Shown here in pieces: positions 9,434-19,255 of a stretch of DNA of 57,715 bases. The notes under the pieces are model-generated. The model was not told where the DNA came from. It searched no databases and worked only from the letters and a program-made list of their open reading frames with translations. Position numbers and translations under genes: made by a program. Location of the stretch: positions 1-57,715 of the IMG/VR virus record IMGVR_UViG_3300004097_000007, one strand, 5' to 3'. The first letter of the stretch is position 1. Every line of letters starts with the position of its first letter. The stretch is from a virus.

Positions 9434-9951
9434 TGGCTTTCGTTTTCACAGTAGAGACAGGCGCAGGGACAGACCCTCTAGCCAACTCTTATGTCTCCGT
9501 TGTGGAAGCGGACGACATCATTACAACAAACATCCATGCAGCGCTTGAATGGGACATGTTGGCGGTAGAACAAAAAGAGAGATTACTGGTATGGGCATCT
9601 CGATATCTCGATGAGCACACCACGTGGAAAGGCGAGAAAACCATTTCTACAAGTCCACGCCGCTGGCCCCGTTCAGGAGTATGCGACCGCGATAACACCC
9701 ATATTGGACCTAATGAAATCCCTGTCCAATTGAAAGTGGCCACCGCCGAAATGGCTCGATATTTAGTGGCGCAAGATCGTACTGTTGAACGCGATAGTGA
9801 TGGACTCGAACGTGTCAAAGCAGACGTTGTAGAAATCGAGTTCCTTCCGGGCTACCGCCTCCCATCTGTACCATCCAATATGCAGTATCTTGTACAAGGT
9901 CTTGGAGCCATTTTTGGTGGCGGATTTCGCTATGGAAAGGTGACACGTTAG
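9433..9951 (+). CDS. Head-tail adaptor, 'DnaT-like' family (172 aa)
   Basis: The N-terminus (TVETGAGTDPLANSYVSVVEAD) and the RYLDEHTTWKGEK ... RRWPRSG ... IPVQLKVATAEMARYL pattern match the phage family usually labelled 'putative DnaT-like'. These proteins are encoded between capsid and tail genes and act as connector/adaptor proteins in the HK97 gp6 position. It overlaps phoH and the next gene by one base each. The DnaT name is historical; replication function is not implied here. Confidence 0.7.
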   Translation: MAFVFTVETGAGTDPLANSYVSVVEADDIITTNIHAALEWDMLAVEQKERLLVWASRYLDEHTTWKGEKTISTSPRRWPRSGVCDRDNTHIGPNEIPVQLKVATAEMARYLVAQDRTVERDSDGLERVKADVVEIEFLPGYRLPSVPSNMQYLVQGLGAIFGGGFRYGKVTR

Positions 9952-11434: not shown

Positions 11435-13537
11435 GTGACCTTTGCTGACGCAAACCGCGCACAAATTCGTACTTTAGAAGAAGTTACTTGGGGGATCACT
11501 CCCACGGTAGGATCTTCTCGCGAAATGCGCTTAACATCTTCATCTCTGTCCGCGACAAAAGAGACGGCGGTCTCCGACGAACTTCGTGCGGATCGTATGG
11601 TTCCTGATATTGTCGAAGTCGCAGCGCACTCTAGTGGTGAAATTAACTTTGAATGGTCTTCTGGCCCGCAGGACGAATTCCTTGCCGGATTCCTTCTATC
11701 CACTTGGACGCGCCCGATGAACATGGATTTCTGGAAAGGATCCATTGTAACCGTATCTGCGGCTAATACCTTCACATTAGTAGGCGTCGACGCTACGCCG
11801 TATATTGAAGCAGGCCGTGTCATCAAGATTGTTGGGTTAGAAGCCGCTGCAAATAATGGCTACTTCACAGTGGCTACTGTAGCTGTAAACGGATCCAATA
11901 CTGATATAACCGTAGCAGCATCCAATTTGGTTGTAGAAGCAGGCGGGAACGCGGCGCGTCTATATGACGCCAATGACGTCATCATTAACGGTAATGAAAC
12001 CATCTCAGCAACCGCATCTGGTTTTGCGGGAACAGGTGTGTTTGCTTCTGCGATTGCTGCTGGACAGCTACAAGTAGGACAGCAAGTTACAGTAGAAGGC
12101 ATGGGATACGGTACAGCGGTCGTGACCTTTACAACTGCTGCTGCGTCCACATTTGCTATGGTACTCAGCGACGGTACAAACGAATTAACCATCACAACTA
12201 CGACTGATTTTGACCCAGGCGTGGATCACATTGCATCTGCCGCAGCGCTTGCGGCATTCATCAACACAAACGCCCGTACAGGTGCCACAGCGCTTAACGT
12301 TAAGGCTTCCGACGACGGTGCAGGGGTTGTTACAGTAACCAACCTTAATACCTTTGTGACTGATCCTGTAACACTGGTTCGCACTGCCTCAACTGGCGGC
12401 GGACAAGCGTACGTAACAGTGCCTGATGCAAACGTTGTTGTTACATCCTTTTCTGCAGCAACGATCACAGTGGCAGGGGACATTACAACATCTGTTCTAA
12501 CACTCGATAACGGTAATGACACGATCACAGCATTAACAGCAGGCACAAGCTATCCGGTAACGGGAGCAGGCGCAGCGGCGGACGGCGCGGCGCTGGCGGC
12601 GGCAATCAATGCTCTGGAAGGCTGGACGGCTGTTGATGATTCTGCTGGAATTCTGACGGTATATCCAAAGCACGCGAATGCTACAATCAACGTTACTACA
12701 GTTGATGCAACGGTTGTCCTAACAACTCCCGTGGAGTACACAGGCAGCACTGAATCGCGCGGCGTATTCAGAATTACAGGCGTAGCTGACGACTTGTTGA
12801 GCGTCACACCTGCACCGCAAATCACACCTGCTGGGCAAGCTGTTGTTATTAAAGGGTCACACCTACGTAACTCTGGAAATGTAAACGCGATTGCGCAGCG
12901 TTCGTGGAGCATTGAAACGGCTTACACCGACATCGATCAGTACATGGAACAGGATGGCATGGTCGTAGGTACCATGGGCTTAGAGATTGCTTCTGGGTCT
13001 ATCCTAACGGGTACACTCGGTTTCGAAGGACGTGCTACGTCATTGCGCCAGTCCACGCTACTTGGATCGCCACTGTATGTGCAGCAAGTCGCCCAATCAG
13101 GTGAAGTGTCCAACGCAACCACAGACGTGGGTAATATCGAAAAAGATGGTGAACTTCTTCCAGCATGTATCCAATCGTTGTCTATTTCTGGGGAAGCCGG
13201 ACTGCGTATGCAAAATTGCGTCGGATCTAAGTTCCCACGCGGTATTGGTACAGGACGATTCAACTTGTCTGGATCCGCAACGATCTACTTTGAAAATCAG
13301 ACACTGTTCAACGACTTCATCTCCCATAGCACACTTTCGCTAGGGTGGTCAGTGGCTGACGCTGAAAATATCGCCTATTATTTCCGCATTCCTGCAGCGA
13401 AATTCTCTGCAGATGAGATTGCACCGGGTGGTATCGACCAAGACGTGTTTGAAAATATCGAGTGGACAGCGTTCCGCGATGCGGCGACGAATACCATGCT
13501 TATGTTGGATCGATTCTCTAACGACACAGCAGTGTAA
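11435..13537 (+). CDS. Major tail tube protein with a large internal insertion (700 aa)
   Basis: GTG 11435 follows a perfect AAGGAGG at 11420-11426. Residues ~1-105 and ~470-700 read as a typical siphophage tube protein: the end has SIETAYTDIDQYMEQDGM, NQTLFNDFISHS, an AYYFRIPAAKF strand and GGIDQDVFENIEWTAF. The middle ~360 residues are repetitive, Ala/Thr/Val-rich and beta-like, with several (T)ITV/NGxxT repeats, as in surface-exposed Ig-like tail decorations. Usual tube proteins are roughly 150-350 residues. An intrinsic terminator follows immediately, as expected for an abundantly made protein. Confidence 0.75.
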   Translation: MTFADANRAQIRTLEEVTWGITPTVGSSREMRLTSSSLSATKETAVSDELRADRMVPDIVEVAAHSSGEINFEWSSGPQDEFLAGFLLSTWTRPMNMDFWKGSIVTVSAANTFTLVGVDATPYIEAGRVIKIVGLEAAANNGYFTVATVAVNGSNTDITVAASNLVVEAGGNAARLYDANDVIINGNETISATASGFAGTGVFASAIAAGQLQVGQQVTVEGMGYGTAVVTFTTAAASTFAMVLSDGTNELTITTTTDFDPGVDHIASAAALAAFINTNARTGATALNVKASDDGAGVVTVTNLNTFVTDPVTLVRTASTGGGQAYVTVPDANVVVTSFSAATITVAGDITTSVLTLDNGNDTITALTAGTSYPVTGAGAAADGAALAAAINALEGWTAVDDSAGILTVYPKHANATINVTTVDATVVLTTPVEYTGSTESRGVFRITGVADDLLSVTPAPQITPAGQAVVIKGSHLRNSGNVNAIAQRSWSIETAYTDIDQYMEQDGMVVGTMGLEIASGSILTGTLGFEGRATSLRQSTLLGSPLYVQQVAQSGEVSNATTDVGNIEKDGELLPACIQSLSISGEAGLRMQNCVGSKFPRGIGTGRFNLSGSATIYFENQTLFNDFISHSTLSLGWSVADAENIAYYFRIPAAKFSADEIAPGGIDQDVFENIEWTAFRDAATNTMLMLDRFSNDTAV

Positions 13538-13550
13538 ACTAATAACAAAG

Positions 13551-13583
13551 AGGGCAGACCCCGAAATCTGCCCTTTTTATTTT
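13551..13583 (+). terminator. Rho-independent terminator after the tail tube gene
   Basis: Arms AGGGCAGA (13551-13558) and TCTGCCCT (13567-13574) pair over an 8-base loop and run into TTTTTATTTT. It lies 14 bases after the tail tube stop. Confidence 0.85.
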
Positions 13584-13694: not shown

Positions 13695-14156
13695 ATGACT
13701 ACACTAAATAGCACAAATCTTCACGCAATCTTTGCAACAGATCGATCCAAAGAAGAAGACGGATCGTGGGTGGATATCAACCAATTCCAAGGATTGAAGA
13801 TTAAAATTCGTCGCCTACGCTCGGACGCGGCGGCAAAAGAATTTGAAACTAAACTGGCTGCACGCTACGGTGAAGGCAAGCTGCGCGAAATGCAGAAAAA
13901 TTCTACAGGCGGAGACACCAACGAAGGTGCTGAGATCCTGAAATTACAACTGTCTTGTGTTTTGGTTGATTGGAAAGGGTTGGTAGATACTTCTGCAGAG
14001 GCTGACGAAGACGGCATTCTACCTGAAATTCCGTATTCAGCCGAACTGGCCACAGAACTTTTAGAACTACGTGATTTCCGTGAATTCGTATTCCAAGCGG
14101 CGAATGAACGAGACGCCTTTCGCGAAACGTCAAACAAAGACGCAGTAAAAAACTAA
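13695..14156 (+). CDS. Tail assembly chaperone, short form (gpG-like, 153 aa)
   Basis: ATG 13695 with GAGGAAG upstream. Size, acidic helical composition and position between the tube and tape-measure genes match the lambda gpG role: it binds the tape measure and recruits tube subunits during assembly. The reading frame ends GTA AAA AAC TAA, so the last two sense codons form the slippery heptamer A AAA AAC (14147-14153). Ribosomes that do not shift make this form; those that shift make the longer GT product. Confidence 0.8.
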   Translation: MTTLNSTNLHAIFATDRSKEEDGSWVDINQFQGLKIKIRRLRSDAAAKEFETKLAARYGEGKLREMQKNSTGGDTNEGAEILKLQLSCVLVDWKGLVDTSAEADEDGILPEIPYSAELATELLELRDFREFVFQAANERDAFRETSNKDAVKN

Positions 14157-14608
14157 CTAGCTTCCTTCGCTGGACTTTGGATCAATCCCCAACGTCCAGC
14201 AAGGAAGCCAGCAAAGAAAAATTTAAGGCGGCATTGGCGGCGAAGGGTAGTAAGAAGATCACAGCGGTCTCCAAAACCCCGCCCGCACAAAAGGCAGTAA
14301 AAGAAGAAGTTCCTATCCTGTTTCCAGATTTATTCTGGGTATGGGGTGCGTACTGTTTTTTGAACGAGCGCCGCCAAGTGGGACCAAATGGACCACAGCC
14401 TATTTCGGTTGAAGCGATGCAGGCGTACTCGCAGCTAACCAACCGCATCGAAACCACCTATCGTGAACAACTACTTCTTTTCATTCCAGAACTAGATCGA
14501 CTGTTTCTACATGATTTCTACGCGAAACAACAGGAACAACATGAAGAAATGCAGAAGAAGCAAGACCAATCCGCGCGCCGCGCAAAAAACACAGGACGAA
14601 GTCGATAA
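13695..14608 (+). CDS. Tail assembly chaperone, -1 frameshift fusion (gpGT-like, 304 aa)
   Basis: The -1 frame is open from the slippery site to a TAA at 14606-14608 and adds 151 residues, starting LTSFLRWTLDQSP, to the 153 of the short form. The join is 13695-14153 then 14153-14608. The added part carries a basic Lys/Ala linker, a PDLFWVWGAYCFLNERRQ segment and a C-terminal amphipathic tail EQHEEMQKKQDQ. The T-like frame has no good independent start near 14177 (only TTG), supporting translation by frameshift. The tape-measure ATG follows directly. Confidence 0.8.
14147..14208 (+). promoter_or_regulatory. Programmed -1 ribosomal frameshift signal
   Basis: Slippery A AAA AAC at 14147-14153, 6-base spacer containing the zero-frame TAA, then a long stem-loop. 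GCTTCCTT (14160-14167) pairs with AAGGAAGC (14201-14208), and GCTGGAC (14169-14175) pairs with GTCCAGC (14194-14200); C14168 is bulged and the loop is 18 bases. The heptamer, spacing and 15-bp stem are as in known tail-chaperone frameshift sites. Confidence 0.85.
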
Positions 14609-17600
14609 ATGGAATCCAATGAACTCCGCCTGATTATCAACGCTGCCGCTGCGAAAACTGGCGGCAAGCAATTTGTTGCGGCTATACGACAAGTACAGCA
14701 ATCAGTAATGGATCTTGATCGAGATTCTGCGGGATCGTTCACCAAACTAAAAGCCGAAGCTAAAGCGGCAGGAACTGCAGCACGCGCAGCGGGTAAGGAA
14801 ATCGGTGCGGCAGGTAAATCCGCCAAAGCAGGCTCGGATGAAGCTGTCGCAGGCCTTTCAAAACAAACCACTGCAGCACAACGCGCCGCCGCCGCGCAGG
14901 CCCAATTCACTGCATCTATGGGCGCAGCACAGCTTGCGTCTGAACGATTACGTGCGCGATTACTCCGTTCGGGAGACGCTGCGGGGGCTGAATTAGTTAC
15001 AGCGGCGTACGATAAGTTAAAAGTGTCTACAACAGGTCTGGCAGGGAACACAGAACGTGCTCGCGCTTCGCTGGCGACGTTCAGAGGCACGCTTACGCAG
15101 ATACAAGTAAAAGCGCTAGAAACCGCCAATAGCTTTGGGCGCACATCCGCACAGGCGCAGGCACTAACGGGCGCTGTTGGTCGTGTATCCGGTGCAAGTA
15201 ATAACGCTGCAGGCGGTATCCGCAATGCAGGCGGAGCTGCGCGACAAGCATCCCGCGATTTCCAAACAGCGGCTGGAAGCATGCGTGGATTTGAAAACGC
15301 ACTGAACGGCACATTTCAAGCGTCATCACTACTGCGAAATGCTTTCGGAGCGATCACCATCGGCGCATTCACCTCTAGTGTATTTCAAGCTGGCGACGCC
15401 CTTGAGCAATTTAAAACTACGATGGAAGTGGCGAGCGGATCCGTTGCTGCCGCAAGCAGCGACCTAGAGTTTATTGATGGAATGGCAAGCCGTCTCGGTA
15501 CAAACCTTGGCGCGTCCCGCGATGCGTTCTCAAAGTTCGCCGTTTCGGCACAAATTGCAGGCGTTGAAACTGGCCAAACCCGTGAAATATTCGAATCCGT
15601 ATCGACCGCCATGGCTGTTCTTGGTAAAGGTACTGAGGATCAGCGTCTAGCTTTCTTAGCCCTAGAGCAAATGATGTCAAAAGGGGTGATCTCCGCCGAA
15701 GAGCTGCGTCGTCAGCTCGGTGAACGCTTACCTGGCGCCGTATCTATCATGGCGAATGCCCTAGGCGTGGGCGTAGGTGAATTACAGGATATGCTTAAAG
15801 CGGGGGAGCTTGTATCCTCAGAGGTTCTGCCCAAATTCGCCCGTGAATTAGATAAGGTTGTCGGATCGCAGTTGGAGCGTACGTTCAACCGAGCCGGATC
15901 CAACTTAGGCCGTCTACAAGTTGAATTTGCTAAATTGCTGGAAGTAGTGTCGAGTAGCGGATTCTTAGATGAATTATCCTCACAATTTAAAGACCTAACA
16001 ACACTGTTGCGCTCATCTGAGGCAGAGGAAGTCGCCCGCCGCATCGGTCAAGGGATGGCAGATATGGCACGCATGGTCGGAGACGCCGCCCAGTTTATCG
16101 TGCAACATTTAGATACCATCGCCACTGTAGCTAAAACCGTGTTCGGGGGTATCCTTGTACGTCAAATTGGCTTAGCAATTACCGCAATTACCGCGATGGG
16201 ATCAGCCTCGAAGGTTTCGGTAGCCGCACACCTATTATTTGGACGCTCCGCCGCTGCTGTCGGAACGCAAATGGCCACTACTACAGGTAAACTGACTGCA
16301 GGGGCAGCAGCTACTACATTGTTTGGCAGCGCATCCGCAGGCGCGGCAGGTAAAGTTAGACTTCTAGGTGCAGGTATGGGACTCCTGCGCGGATCTTTCG
16401 CGTTTCTAACTGGACCAGTCGGGCTGGCACTTACCGCCTTAACGCTTCTTCCTGCCATTTTCAGTGATGCAGGTAATGCTGCTGAAAATACATCCGCGCA
16501 GTATGAAAAAGCTATGCAGCGCATGAATACAGCAAGCTTCGATTTCTTGGATACTGCTCGTCAGATCGGAGAGCTTACACCGTTTGATCGATTAAATCAA
16601 ACCCTTGGCGCGCTATCCGAAGGACGCGTTATAATTGAGGAGCTGGCTTCTTCCGGAACGTTTTTGACTAATCTCGCTGACAATATGCGCGATCTAACAG
16701 AAGCAACGCAGGGAACGGGAGCGGCTGCAGAGGTTTCTGGATTAACAACGCTTGTAGAAGACCTTCTGGCTATGAACCTGACTGCCCCAGAAGCGGCTGA
16801 CAAGGTTAATGAAATCTCGGATGCGATGAACGCGTTGAACGGTTCTGGAGAATTGGGGGACAACTTTTCCGAGCTGAAAACATTGGGCGACACCTTGAAT
16901 CCGCTGGGACAGGCCATCCTAACGTTCAGTGGATCAATGAAGGAAGCCGACACAATCGCTGGAGATCTGGGTGGCACACTTTCAGATCTCAATGTAAAAC
17001 AGGGAGAGCTTTTTGCGGCGCAAGAACTGCTGATCACCGGGCAGGGCAATTTAAATAACATGTCAGCCGAGACAGCCGCTGCATTTGATGGGCTGGCGAA
17101 CGGTCCTATCGTTGGTTTAGTCAGCCAAATGAGCCAGCTTGAACAGCGTATGCAGCGTATTTCTAACTTAAATGGTTCTGGTGTACGCGTAAATGAACTT
17201 GTAACTAATTTACAACTACTGAGACTGACGTTCGACGGCACGCAAGAATCCATCGATGAGTATGCAGCCCACTTGGAAGAGGCACGCGCTAAGGCACAGC
17301 AAGTCGCTGATAATGATTCGCTTTCTCGCCGTCTCAGAGAAGATGCAGCAGCCGCCTTAGAGGCAATCAGTGAAGCGGAAGCGTACGTAAATTCCTTATT
17401 GAATCTACAGGCGCAGGGAGATACAACTGCTGCGGCGCAGGAGAATTTACGCAATAACGTAAACGGAGCGAGCGGTGCCATGAGCAACGCCTCCGCAGTC
17501 GCATACGAATATGCAGGGGCGCTTGCGGTGGTTGCGTCGGCGCAGGCAAACGTTTCAGACATTTCAACTGATTTCCGAGAACAAAACCGTCTTCGCGTAG

Positions 17601-19255
17601 AATTATCCACGCTTGAAGGCGAGGCGCGTGCAGTATTCCAAGATCAAAACTTCGGTAACACTGCGCGCGAAGTCGCGGCAGTAAATAAAGAAATAGCAGC
17701 AGCCGAGGACACAATACGAAGCCTATCTACAACAGGTGACGCAATGGGTGCGGAACTCGCCCCCATCAACGCAGAGATTGTGAAATTGTACGATGAACGT
17801 GCCCAAATCATGGCAGAGGGAGAAGCCGCAACAACGTCGATTTTTCAGAACAATGAAGCCCGCGCAGCGGCGCGTCGTGAAAGCCCGCGTAGCAAACGCG
17901 GTGGTGGAGGCGGTAGTAAAGGCGGTAAATCAGATGCTGCTAAAGCGCTAGAAGCAGAACAGAAAGCATACGAACAAGCCGAAAAAGCGCTTAAAGACTA
18001 CGTCTTAGGGCTGCAGGATGAGTCAATCGCACTGTCACTCGTTACAACTGGACGAGCGTCTTCCACCGAAGCCGCTAGTCTTTTAATTGAAGCGCAGCGT
18101 TTAGGTGTAATTACTTCCGACGAGCAAGCAGACGCATTCCTGCGTCAGGCACGCGCTGCGGAAGAACTCAAGAGAGAAATGGAAGCGCTTGCAAATGACC
18201 CTGTAAAGCAGTGGCTTGCGAGTGTCCCTGCATGGCGCGAAGCTGGGCAGCAAATCGAAGTAGGCGTGTTCGAATCACTCAGTGATTCTATTTCAAACTT
18301 TATCAAAACAGGTCAATTTAGTTTCGAAGCTTTAGGAGAGTCAATTTTGAGCACGGTATCCGATATTGTTGCGGATAAAGCCGTTAAGGAGTTGGCAACA
18401 CTATTTGGCGGAGGTGAAAATGGTTTTGATCTGGGTGGGATACTGAGCGGAGCCTTTGCTTCTACGGGTGATGACACGGGCGGAATAGATATTGCATCGG
18501 CAGACCAGTCGGCTGTTATCCAAAATGCCCACAACCTTGGAGGACAGCAGGTTGCTAACGCAATCCAGCAAGCGTTCACAGGAGTGTCTGGACAACTACG
18601 CACCGACATAAAAAGCGGTGGCTCAGAAGCTGCGGCGAAATTAAAGACAGGCTTACAGACGGGCGGAACAGTCGCGTCGACTCAAATGGGAACACAGGTT
18701 AGAACTGCTGCAACGTCTGGGGCAGGTAATATGCACAACAAAATTGTTACAGCGTCACGTACAGGGGCATCTGCGATGGGATCAGCAATTGCATCCAGTT
18801 CAGGTGCGCCCGGTGGAGGGGGTTTATTAGGACTCTTCGGAGGCGGCGAAGGCGGTGGCTTATTCGGCGGCGGAGGCGGTGGTGGAAGTTTAGACTCTAT
18901 ACTATCCTTTGCCACGGGGTTCTTCTCGGAAGGAGGGATGTCTACAAGTCCAGTTGCAACTCAATCCGTACCCGCATCTGCATTCAAAAACGCACCACAC
19001 TTTAGTCGCGGCACCGCGAACACTTCGGGAATACCTGCAATGCTGCACGACAATGAAGCAGTTGTACCGTTGTCAGGGGGTCGAAAGATTCCTGTTGACT
19101 TGGGGGATGCAGGTGGTGTAGGAGGTGGTTCTACTGTAATAAATCAATCGTTCAATATCACGACACCAGACTCTGACAGCTTCCGACGCTCTCAATCACA
19201 AACCGCCGCTGACGCGGCTGGTGCTGCTAATCGTGCTCTTAGAGCGAATACATGA
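14609..19255 (+). CDS. Tape measure protein (1548 aa)
   Basis: ATG 14609 directly follows the GT stop. The N-terminus is Ala-rich helical; residues ~220-470 match the tape-measure N-terminal domain (AGDALEQFKTTMEVASGS, then MSKGVISAEELRRQLGERLP and a VLPKFARELDK motif). Hydrophobic stretches lie around residues 510-535 and 590-620, followed by coiled-coil-prone regions. The Gly-rich end (~1395-1440) leads to GIPAMLHDNEAVVPLSGG, a motif common in tape-measure C-termini. The protein sets tail length; about 1.5 Å per residue would suggest a tail near 230 nm, an estimate from the general rule only. Confidence 0.95.
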   Translation: MESNELRLIINAAAAKTGGKQFVAAIRQVQQSVMDLDRDSAGSFTKLKAEAKAAGTAARAAGKEIGAAGKSAKAGSDEAVAGLSKQTTAAQRAAAAQAQFTASMGAAQLASERLRARLLRSGDAAGAELVTAAYDKLKVSTTGLAGNTERARASLATFRGTLTQIQVKALETANSFGRTSAQAQALTGAVGRVSGASNNAAGGIRNAGGAARQASRDFQTAAGSMRGFENALNGTFQASSLLRNAFGAITIGAFTSSVFQAGDALEQFKTTMEVASGSVAAASSDLEFIDGMASRLGTNLGASRDAFSKFAVSAQIAGVETGQTREIFESVSTAMAVLGKGTEDQRLAFLALEQMMSKGVISAEELRRQLGERLPGAVSIMANALGVGVGELQDMLKAGELVSSEVLPKFARELDKVVGSQLERTFNRAGSNLGRLQVEFAKLLEVVSSSGFLDELSSQFKDLTTLLRSSEAEEVARRIGQGMADMARMVGDAAQFIVQHLDTIATVAKTVFGGILVRQIGLAITAITAMGSASKVSVAAHLLFGRSAAAVGTQMATTTGKLTAGAAATTLFGSASAGAAGKVRLLGAGMGLLRGSFAFLTGPVGLALTALTLLPAIFSDAGNAAENTSAQYEKAMQRMNTASFDFLDTARQIGELTPFDRLNQTLGALSEGRVIIEELASSGTFLTNLADNMRDLTEATQGTGAAAEVSGLTTLVEDLLAMNLTAPEAADKVNEISDAMNALNGSGELGDNFSELKTLGDTLNPLGQAILTFSGSMKEADTIAGDLGGTLSDLNVKQGELFAAQELLITGQGNLNNMSAETAAAFDGLANGPIVGLVSQMSQLEQRMQRISNLNGSGVRVNELVTNLQLLRLTFDGTQESIDEYAAHLEEARAKAQQVADNDSLSRRLREDAAAALEAISEAEAYVNSLLNLQAQGDTTAAAQENLRNNVNGASGAMSNASAVAYEYAGALAVVASAQANVSDISTDFREQNRLRVELSTLEGEARAVFQDQNFGNTAREVAAVNKEIAAAEDTIRSLSTTGDAMGAELAPINAEIVKLYDERAQIMAEGEAATTSIFQNNEARAAARRESPRSKRGGGGGSKGGKSDAAKALEAEQKAYEQAEKALKDYVLGLQDESIALSLVTTGRASSTEAASLLIEAQRLGVITSDEQADAFLRQARAAEELKREMEALANDPVKQWLASVPAWREAGQQIEVGVFESLSDSISNFIKTGQFSFEALGESILSTVSDIVADKAVKELATLFGGGENGFDLGGILSGAFASTGDDTGGIDIASADQSAVIQNAHNLGGQQVANAIQQAFTGVSGQLRTDIKSGGSEAAAKLKTGLQTGGTVASTQMGTQVRTAATSGAGNMHNKIVTASRTGASAMGSAIASSSGAPGGGGLLGLFGGGEGGGLFGGGGGGGSLDSILSFATGFFSEGGMSTSPVATQSVPASAFKNAPHFSRGTANTSGIPAMLHDNEAVVPLSGGRKIPVDLGDAGGVGGGSTVINQSFNITTPDSDSFRRSQSQTAADAAGAANRALRANT

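Follow-up and report, generated by a model that had tools for sequence, protein, structure and literature searches.

A probable programmed -1 ribosomal frameshift signal with a downstream hairpin in a phage tail assembly chaperone gene

In the 57,715-nucleotide stretch of viral DNA analysed here (the window; IMG/VR record IMGVR_UViG_3300004097_000007), a slippery heptamer, a stop codon and a strong hairpin very probably form a programmed -1 ribosomal frameshift signal that lets a single start codon serve two tail assembly chaperones. The anatomy of the site is plain, both reading frames are conserved as coding sequence, the heptamer is kept in relatives, and a stem recurs among them. The original prediction of a -1 frameshift in a tail chaperone gene is supported by the position of the site between the tube and tape measure genes, by the match of both halves to one PHROG family, by the conserved heptamer and by a protein motif that starts at the shift point.

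Organization of the locus

The gene order, as given by Pfam profile matches, is tail terminator, tail tube, G and T, tape measure (Table 1). G is preceded by a Shine-Dalgarno-like GAGGAAG and its 3′ end reads GTA AAA AAC TAA. The heptamer A_AAA_AAC, which had been proposed as the slippery site, lies in the zero-frame phase X_XXY_YYZ near the 3′ end of G, as expected of a dsDNA phage G/GT frameshift, and it is the only in-phase X3Y3Z within the final 90 nt of that gene. The -1 frame is open from 14108; counted from CTA at 14153 it runs through 14605 and closes with the stop at 14606-14608, directly before the tape measure ATG at 14609, so that the 151 codons originally assigned to it were found again and reach as far as the T frame of a G/GT pair should. 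The predicted GT fusion has 304 residues.

Table 1. Features of the putative frameshift site and of the surrounding genes (positions in the window)
Feature	Position	Strand	Basis
Tail tube protein	11435-13537	+	Pfam Phage_tube_2, 4.3e-26; upstream of G
Zero-frame ORF G, tail assembly chaperone, 153 aa	13695-14156	+	PHROG 8233 and 313; predicted fold matches viral tail assembly chaperones
Slippery heptamer A_AAA_AAC	14147-14153	+	Sequence; kept at the same place in relatives
-1 frame extension T, 151 codons and TAA	14153-14608	+	Pfam Phage_TAC_18, 2.7e-9; PHROG 8233
Zero-frame stop TAA	14154-14156	+	Abuts the heptamer; at +0 or +3 in nearly all relatives
Spacer TAACTA, 6 nt	14154-14159	+	Sequence
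Stem 5′ arm, bulged C14168	14160-14175	+	Fold; covers the -1 frame F-L-R-W codons (14162-14173)
Apical region, 18 nt	14176-14193	+	Fold; holds an inner 4-bp helix
Stem 3′ arm	14194-14208	+	Fold; sits in a variable linker of the T part
Tape measure protein	14609-19255	+	Pfam TMP_3, 3.5e-30

The chaperone homology of the two frames, together with their place between the tube and tape measure genes, is that of a G/GT pair: in PHROG 8233, whose members are tail assembly chaperones, G covers positions 7-140 and T continues over 141-268. The structures predicted by AlphaFold (pLDDT 80 for G, 84 for T) were compared separately, and both match the same single 268-residue chaperone, K4K660 of CcrColossus (E values of 8.6e-9 for G and 2.5e-4 for T). 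Searches of solved structures gave no credible match with G and no match with T by sequence; the NCBIfam search returned no match, the Rfam search of the window none, and no relatives were found in the bacterial genomes searched. Sub-threshold Pfam matches to DUF5870 (G) and BrxA (T) were read as chance or remote.

Two further observations concern the region upstream. The tail tube protein has 700 residues and the Pfam profile, of 266 positions, is stretched over residues 7-679, so large insertions are likely in this protein. Between its gene and G, at 13547-13578, lies a strong intrinsic-terminator-like hairpin with a U-tract, and G/GT may therefore be transcribed at a level other than that of the tube gene.

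A strong hairpin downstream of the heptamer

The stem anticipated from the sequence, 15 bp with a single bulge, was recovered in full: positions 14160-14167 and 14169-14175 pair with 14194-14208, the 5′ arm (GCTTCCTT, the bulged C, then GCTGGAC) facing the 3′ arm (GTCCAGCAAGGAAGC). The apical region, described at the outset as an 18-base loop, does have that length but is not entirely unpaired, as TTGG (14177-14180) forms an inner helix with CCAA (14189-14192); the hairpin is worth -30.0 kcal/mol with this helix and -23.2 kcal/mol with the loop open. The spacer, six bases holding the zero-frame stop as had been claimed, sets the beginning of the stem 6 nt after the heptamer, a distance in the range of 5-8 nt that is typical of stimulators (PMC4066793). 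No pseudoknot between the apical loop and the flanks is indicated, since the best loop pairing (-4.6 kcal/mol) does not surpass the median for random regions (-4.8 kcal/mol).

Folds of this stability are rare in the window. The minimum free energy is -32 kcal/mol, with a z-score of about -6.4 to -7, and none of 200 dinucleotide shuffles was as stable; only 5 of the 23,062 windows of 60 nt sampled on both strands folded equally well. The window holds 380 X3Y3Z heptamers, and about -31 kcal/mol or lower was reached only here and by the antisense copy of the same stem. When the -1 protein was held fixed and its codons were replaced by synonyms at the frequencies found in the window, none of 300 recoded sequences folded as well (z -5.5).

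Recurrence of the stem in relatives

Relatives were found by protein similarity (29 sites, the window included) and with a DNA pattern combining the heptamer and FL[RS]W-type codons, which gave further, more diverged sites in a viral collection, many of them with matching frames. Eight of nine proteins tested from these pattern-found sites match tail chaperone families; the exception was the T half of one site (L079), whose G half matched weakly. Alignments of all 17 relatives were too divergent for use in scanning.

Judged by dinucleotide-shuffle z alone, the relatives carry a weak and broad downstream signal (mean -0.76 at +5 and -0.52 elsewhere), which suggested a stem peculiar to this virus, a view that was revised after arm-swapping and synonymous tests. 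In the folds of the pattern-found sites the FLRW codons repeatedly supply the 5′ arm. We compared, in 41 non-redundant relatives without the window, the pairing of the 20 nt from +5 with the next 50 nt against the same pairing after downstream parts had been exchanged among GC-matched relatives (2000 draws). Own arms paired at a mean of -17.2 kcal/mol and swapped ones at -14.6 ± 0.45 kcal/mol (Z -5.8, 0 of 2000 draws), for arm windows that were picked after example folds had been seen; with the subset found by protein similarity only, the effect is weaker (Z -2.9, p 0.0015). In a scan of 30 offsets the signal peaked at this one and was clear over 0 to +20, with nothing below Z -2.2 outside. 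The antisense strand gave a Z of -4.9 for own-versus-swapped pairing, so that the swap test by itself is no proof of selection at the RNA level. The synonymous-codon control on the same 41 relatives gave a mean z of -1.18 (t -5.1), with 15 of the 41 below -2, and by the two controls together pairing is kept beyond what coding would lead one to expect. Among the 24 strongest-pairing sites, which include the window, 23 have a stem that begins 4-7 nt past the heptamer.

The family thus seems to have, as a recurrent feature, a hairpin placed 4-7 nt downstream of the heptamer, with a 5′ arm that coincides with the conserved protein motif. The nearest relatives (L022/L048, L061 and L072, with G about 45-58% identical) have no comparable stem, which makes the stem recurrent rather than universal and not strictly required in the family. 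The original prediction remarked that so obvious a stimulator is missing from many G/GT sites; this is borne out by these nearest relatives but not by the many diverged ones that have a stem at the same place.

Should the frameshift be real and the hairpin incidental (a coding coincidence, a transcription terminator or a processing site), the stemless nearest relatives and a mean shuffle z so near background would be readily accounted for, yet we consider this unlikely: synonymous recoding fails to produce the stem by chance, no U-tract follows it and the terminator scan did not list it, own-versus-swapped pairing peaks exactly at its position across relatives, and its spacing is that of a stimulator. 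We lean slightly towards a stimulator common to the family, namely a hairpin with its 5′ arm in the FL[RK]W codons and its 3′ arm in a freely varying linker that would track synonymous changes of the 5′ arm; motif and RNA signal would then share one stretch, and lineages would have lost the stem and gained it again. Such a family-wide overlap of a stimulator arm with a protein motif may perhaps be new, since no report of it was found in the open-access papers searched.

The frame junction in relatives

A heptamer stands at the junction in each of the 29 sites from the protein similarity search (GGGAAAC in 16, AAAAAAC in 12 and GGGAAAG in one), always in the X_XXY_YYZ phase, and the zero-frame stop follows at +0 or +3 in nearly all of them. 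Two residues at the junction never vary, N153 as the last of the zero frame and L1 as the first of the -1 frame, and in most relatives the -1 frame starts with L-x-x-F-L-[RK]-W at the shift point. In the group of phage DSS3P8 the heptamer itself is where the open -1 frame begins, and the zero frame ends immediately behind it, so the change of frame must fall within 10 nt.

This arrangement leaves very little room for a T protein made separately from its own start. The -1 frame does offer a TTG at 14177, and T is entered as a separate short CDS in several GenBank relatives, but no Shine-Dalgarno sequence stands ahead of that TTG, which lies inside the hairpin; initiation there would drop the conserved L..FLRW segment that begins at the shift point, the starts annotated in relatives are scattered, and in the DSS3P8 group the -1 frame starts at the heptamer itself. 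Just as improbable is RNA polymerase slippage on the six-A run, by which one extra A in some transcripts would give the same fusion through the -1 frame, as most relatives have GGGAAAC, with three As only, at the same place and always keep the X_XXY_YYZ phase, and transcript slippage usually requires longer runs.

Proposed mechanism

With ribosomal frameshifting as the preferred reading, most ribosomes would halt at the TAA adjoining A_AAA_AAC and release the 153-residue G. A minority would stall when their mRNA entry side meets the 15-bp hairpin, and in these we infer a tandem -1 slip of tRNA-Lys and tRNA-Asn on the heptamer, giving ...V-K-N-L-T-S-F-L-R-W... and the 304-residue GT fusion. By analogy with lambda, the role of G would be to coat the tape measure protein, and that of the T part in GT to recruit tail tube subunits. 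Lambda makes G and GT at a ratio of about 30:1 (PMC5009743); for two HK97-like chaperone genes, reporters showed 6-7% frameshifting (PMC3711429).

The site had been called a textbook one, which is fair for its G/GT-type anatomy but less so for the heptamer, since ribosomes of E. coli slip much less readily on A_AAA_AAC than on A_AAA_AAG (PMC5009743, PMC4066793); the re-pairing of AAC to AAA is poorly tolerated by bacterial ribosomes (PMC4066793). Both points fit the need for a stimulator, and the strong hairpin may compensate for the weaker heptamer.

Genome context

The virus, a large phage of marine type, comes from environmental contigs. The window corresponds to positions 44498-102212 of a 139.6-kb contig, with which it is identical over the 17.7 kb compared. 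A 20-kb stretch of this contig (positions 20001-40000, L042, including its intervals 1509-1871 and 9448-9523) holds 19 tRNA genes, among them a tRNA-Asn(GTT) and a tRNA-Lys(TTT), which would decode the codons of the slippery site. The same stretch holds a permuted tmRNA gene with the tag AANDNAAPTEMAIAA and a tRNA with a CTA anticodon, which could suppress amber stops; TAG terminates 7 of the 48 ORFs listed in the window.

Comparison with known systems

This kind of frameshift is already known in phages, and the site is a further example. The scheme is that of lambda gpG/gpGT and of other dsDNA phages, where the one gene ahead of the tape measure gene is expressed as two products through -1 slippage, as predicted here. 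The closest isolated phages are the DSS3P8-like roseophages (DSS3P8, V10, MD18, MAL1, RcXuper and RpAliso), with G and T each 50-54% identical and the same gene order; they differ in having GGGAAAC instead of AAAAAAC, weaker stems and GenBank records without a frameshift annotation (records L006-L011, in which L009, 2414-2806, is DSS3P8). The gene preceding the tape measure gene in DSS3P8 has been described as half as long as that of phiCbK (PMC4961962), which may reflect the unannotated frameshift.

Next come the phiCbK-like Caulobacter phages (Shapirovirus, Poindextervirus and Bertelyvirus), whose chaperone gp93/gp94 precedes the tape measure gene and is homologous in both G and T, with AAAAAAC adjoining the stop; the phiCbK and CcrSwift records even annotate a programmed frameshift. 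Their proteins, however, are only 22-34% identical to G and T of this virus, and they have no stem of equal strength at the canonical spacing. Published heptamers include AAAAAAC for the phiCbK phages, GGGAAAC for Colossus (both PMC3556154) and AAAAAAC for Acinetobacter phage Loki (PMC5313236). For Burkholderia phage KL1, the report describes GGGAAAC directly before the stop of gp18/gp19 and a stem-loop predicted downstream, the latter, unlike the recurrent stem described here, from one phage only (PMC3483164).

The site offers a clean and testable frameshift cassette in a group of large phages in which the frameshift is mostly unannotated, so that most of the examined records lack the T half of the chaperone or give it a wrong start. 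The pairing signal at the level of the family gives a route to study how an RNA stimulator is retained inside a conserved coding motif, and it also bears on whether a strong stem offsets the weaker A_AAA_AAC.
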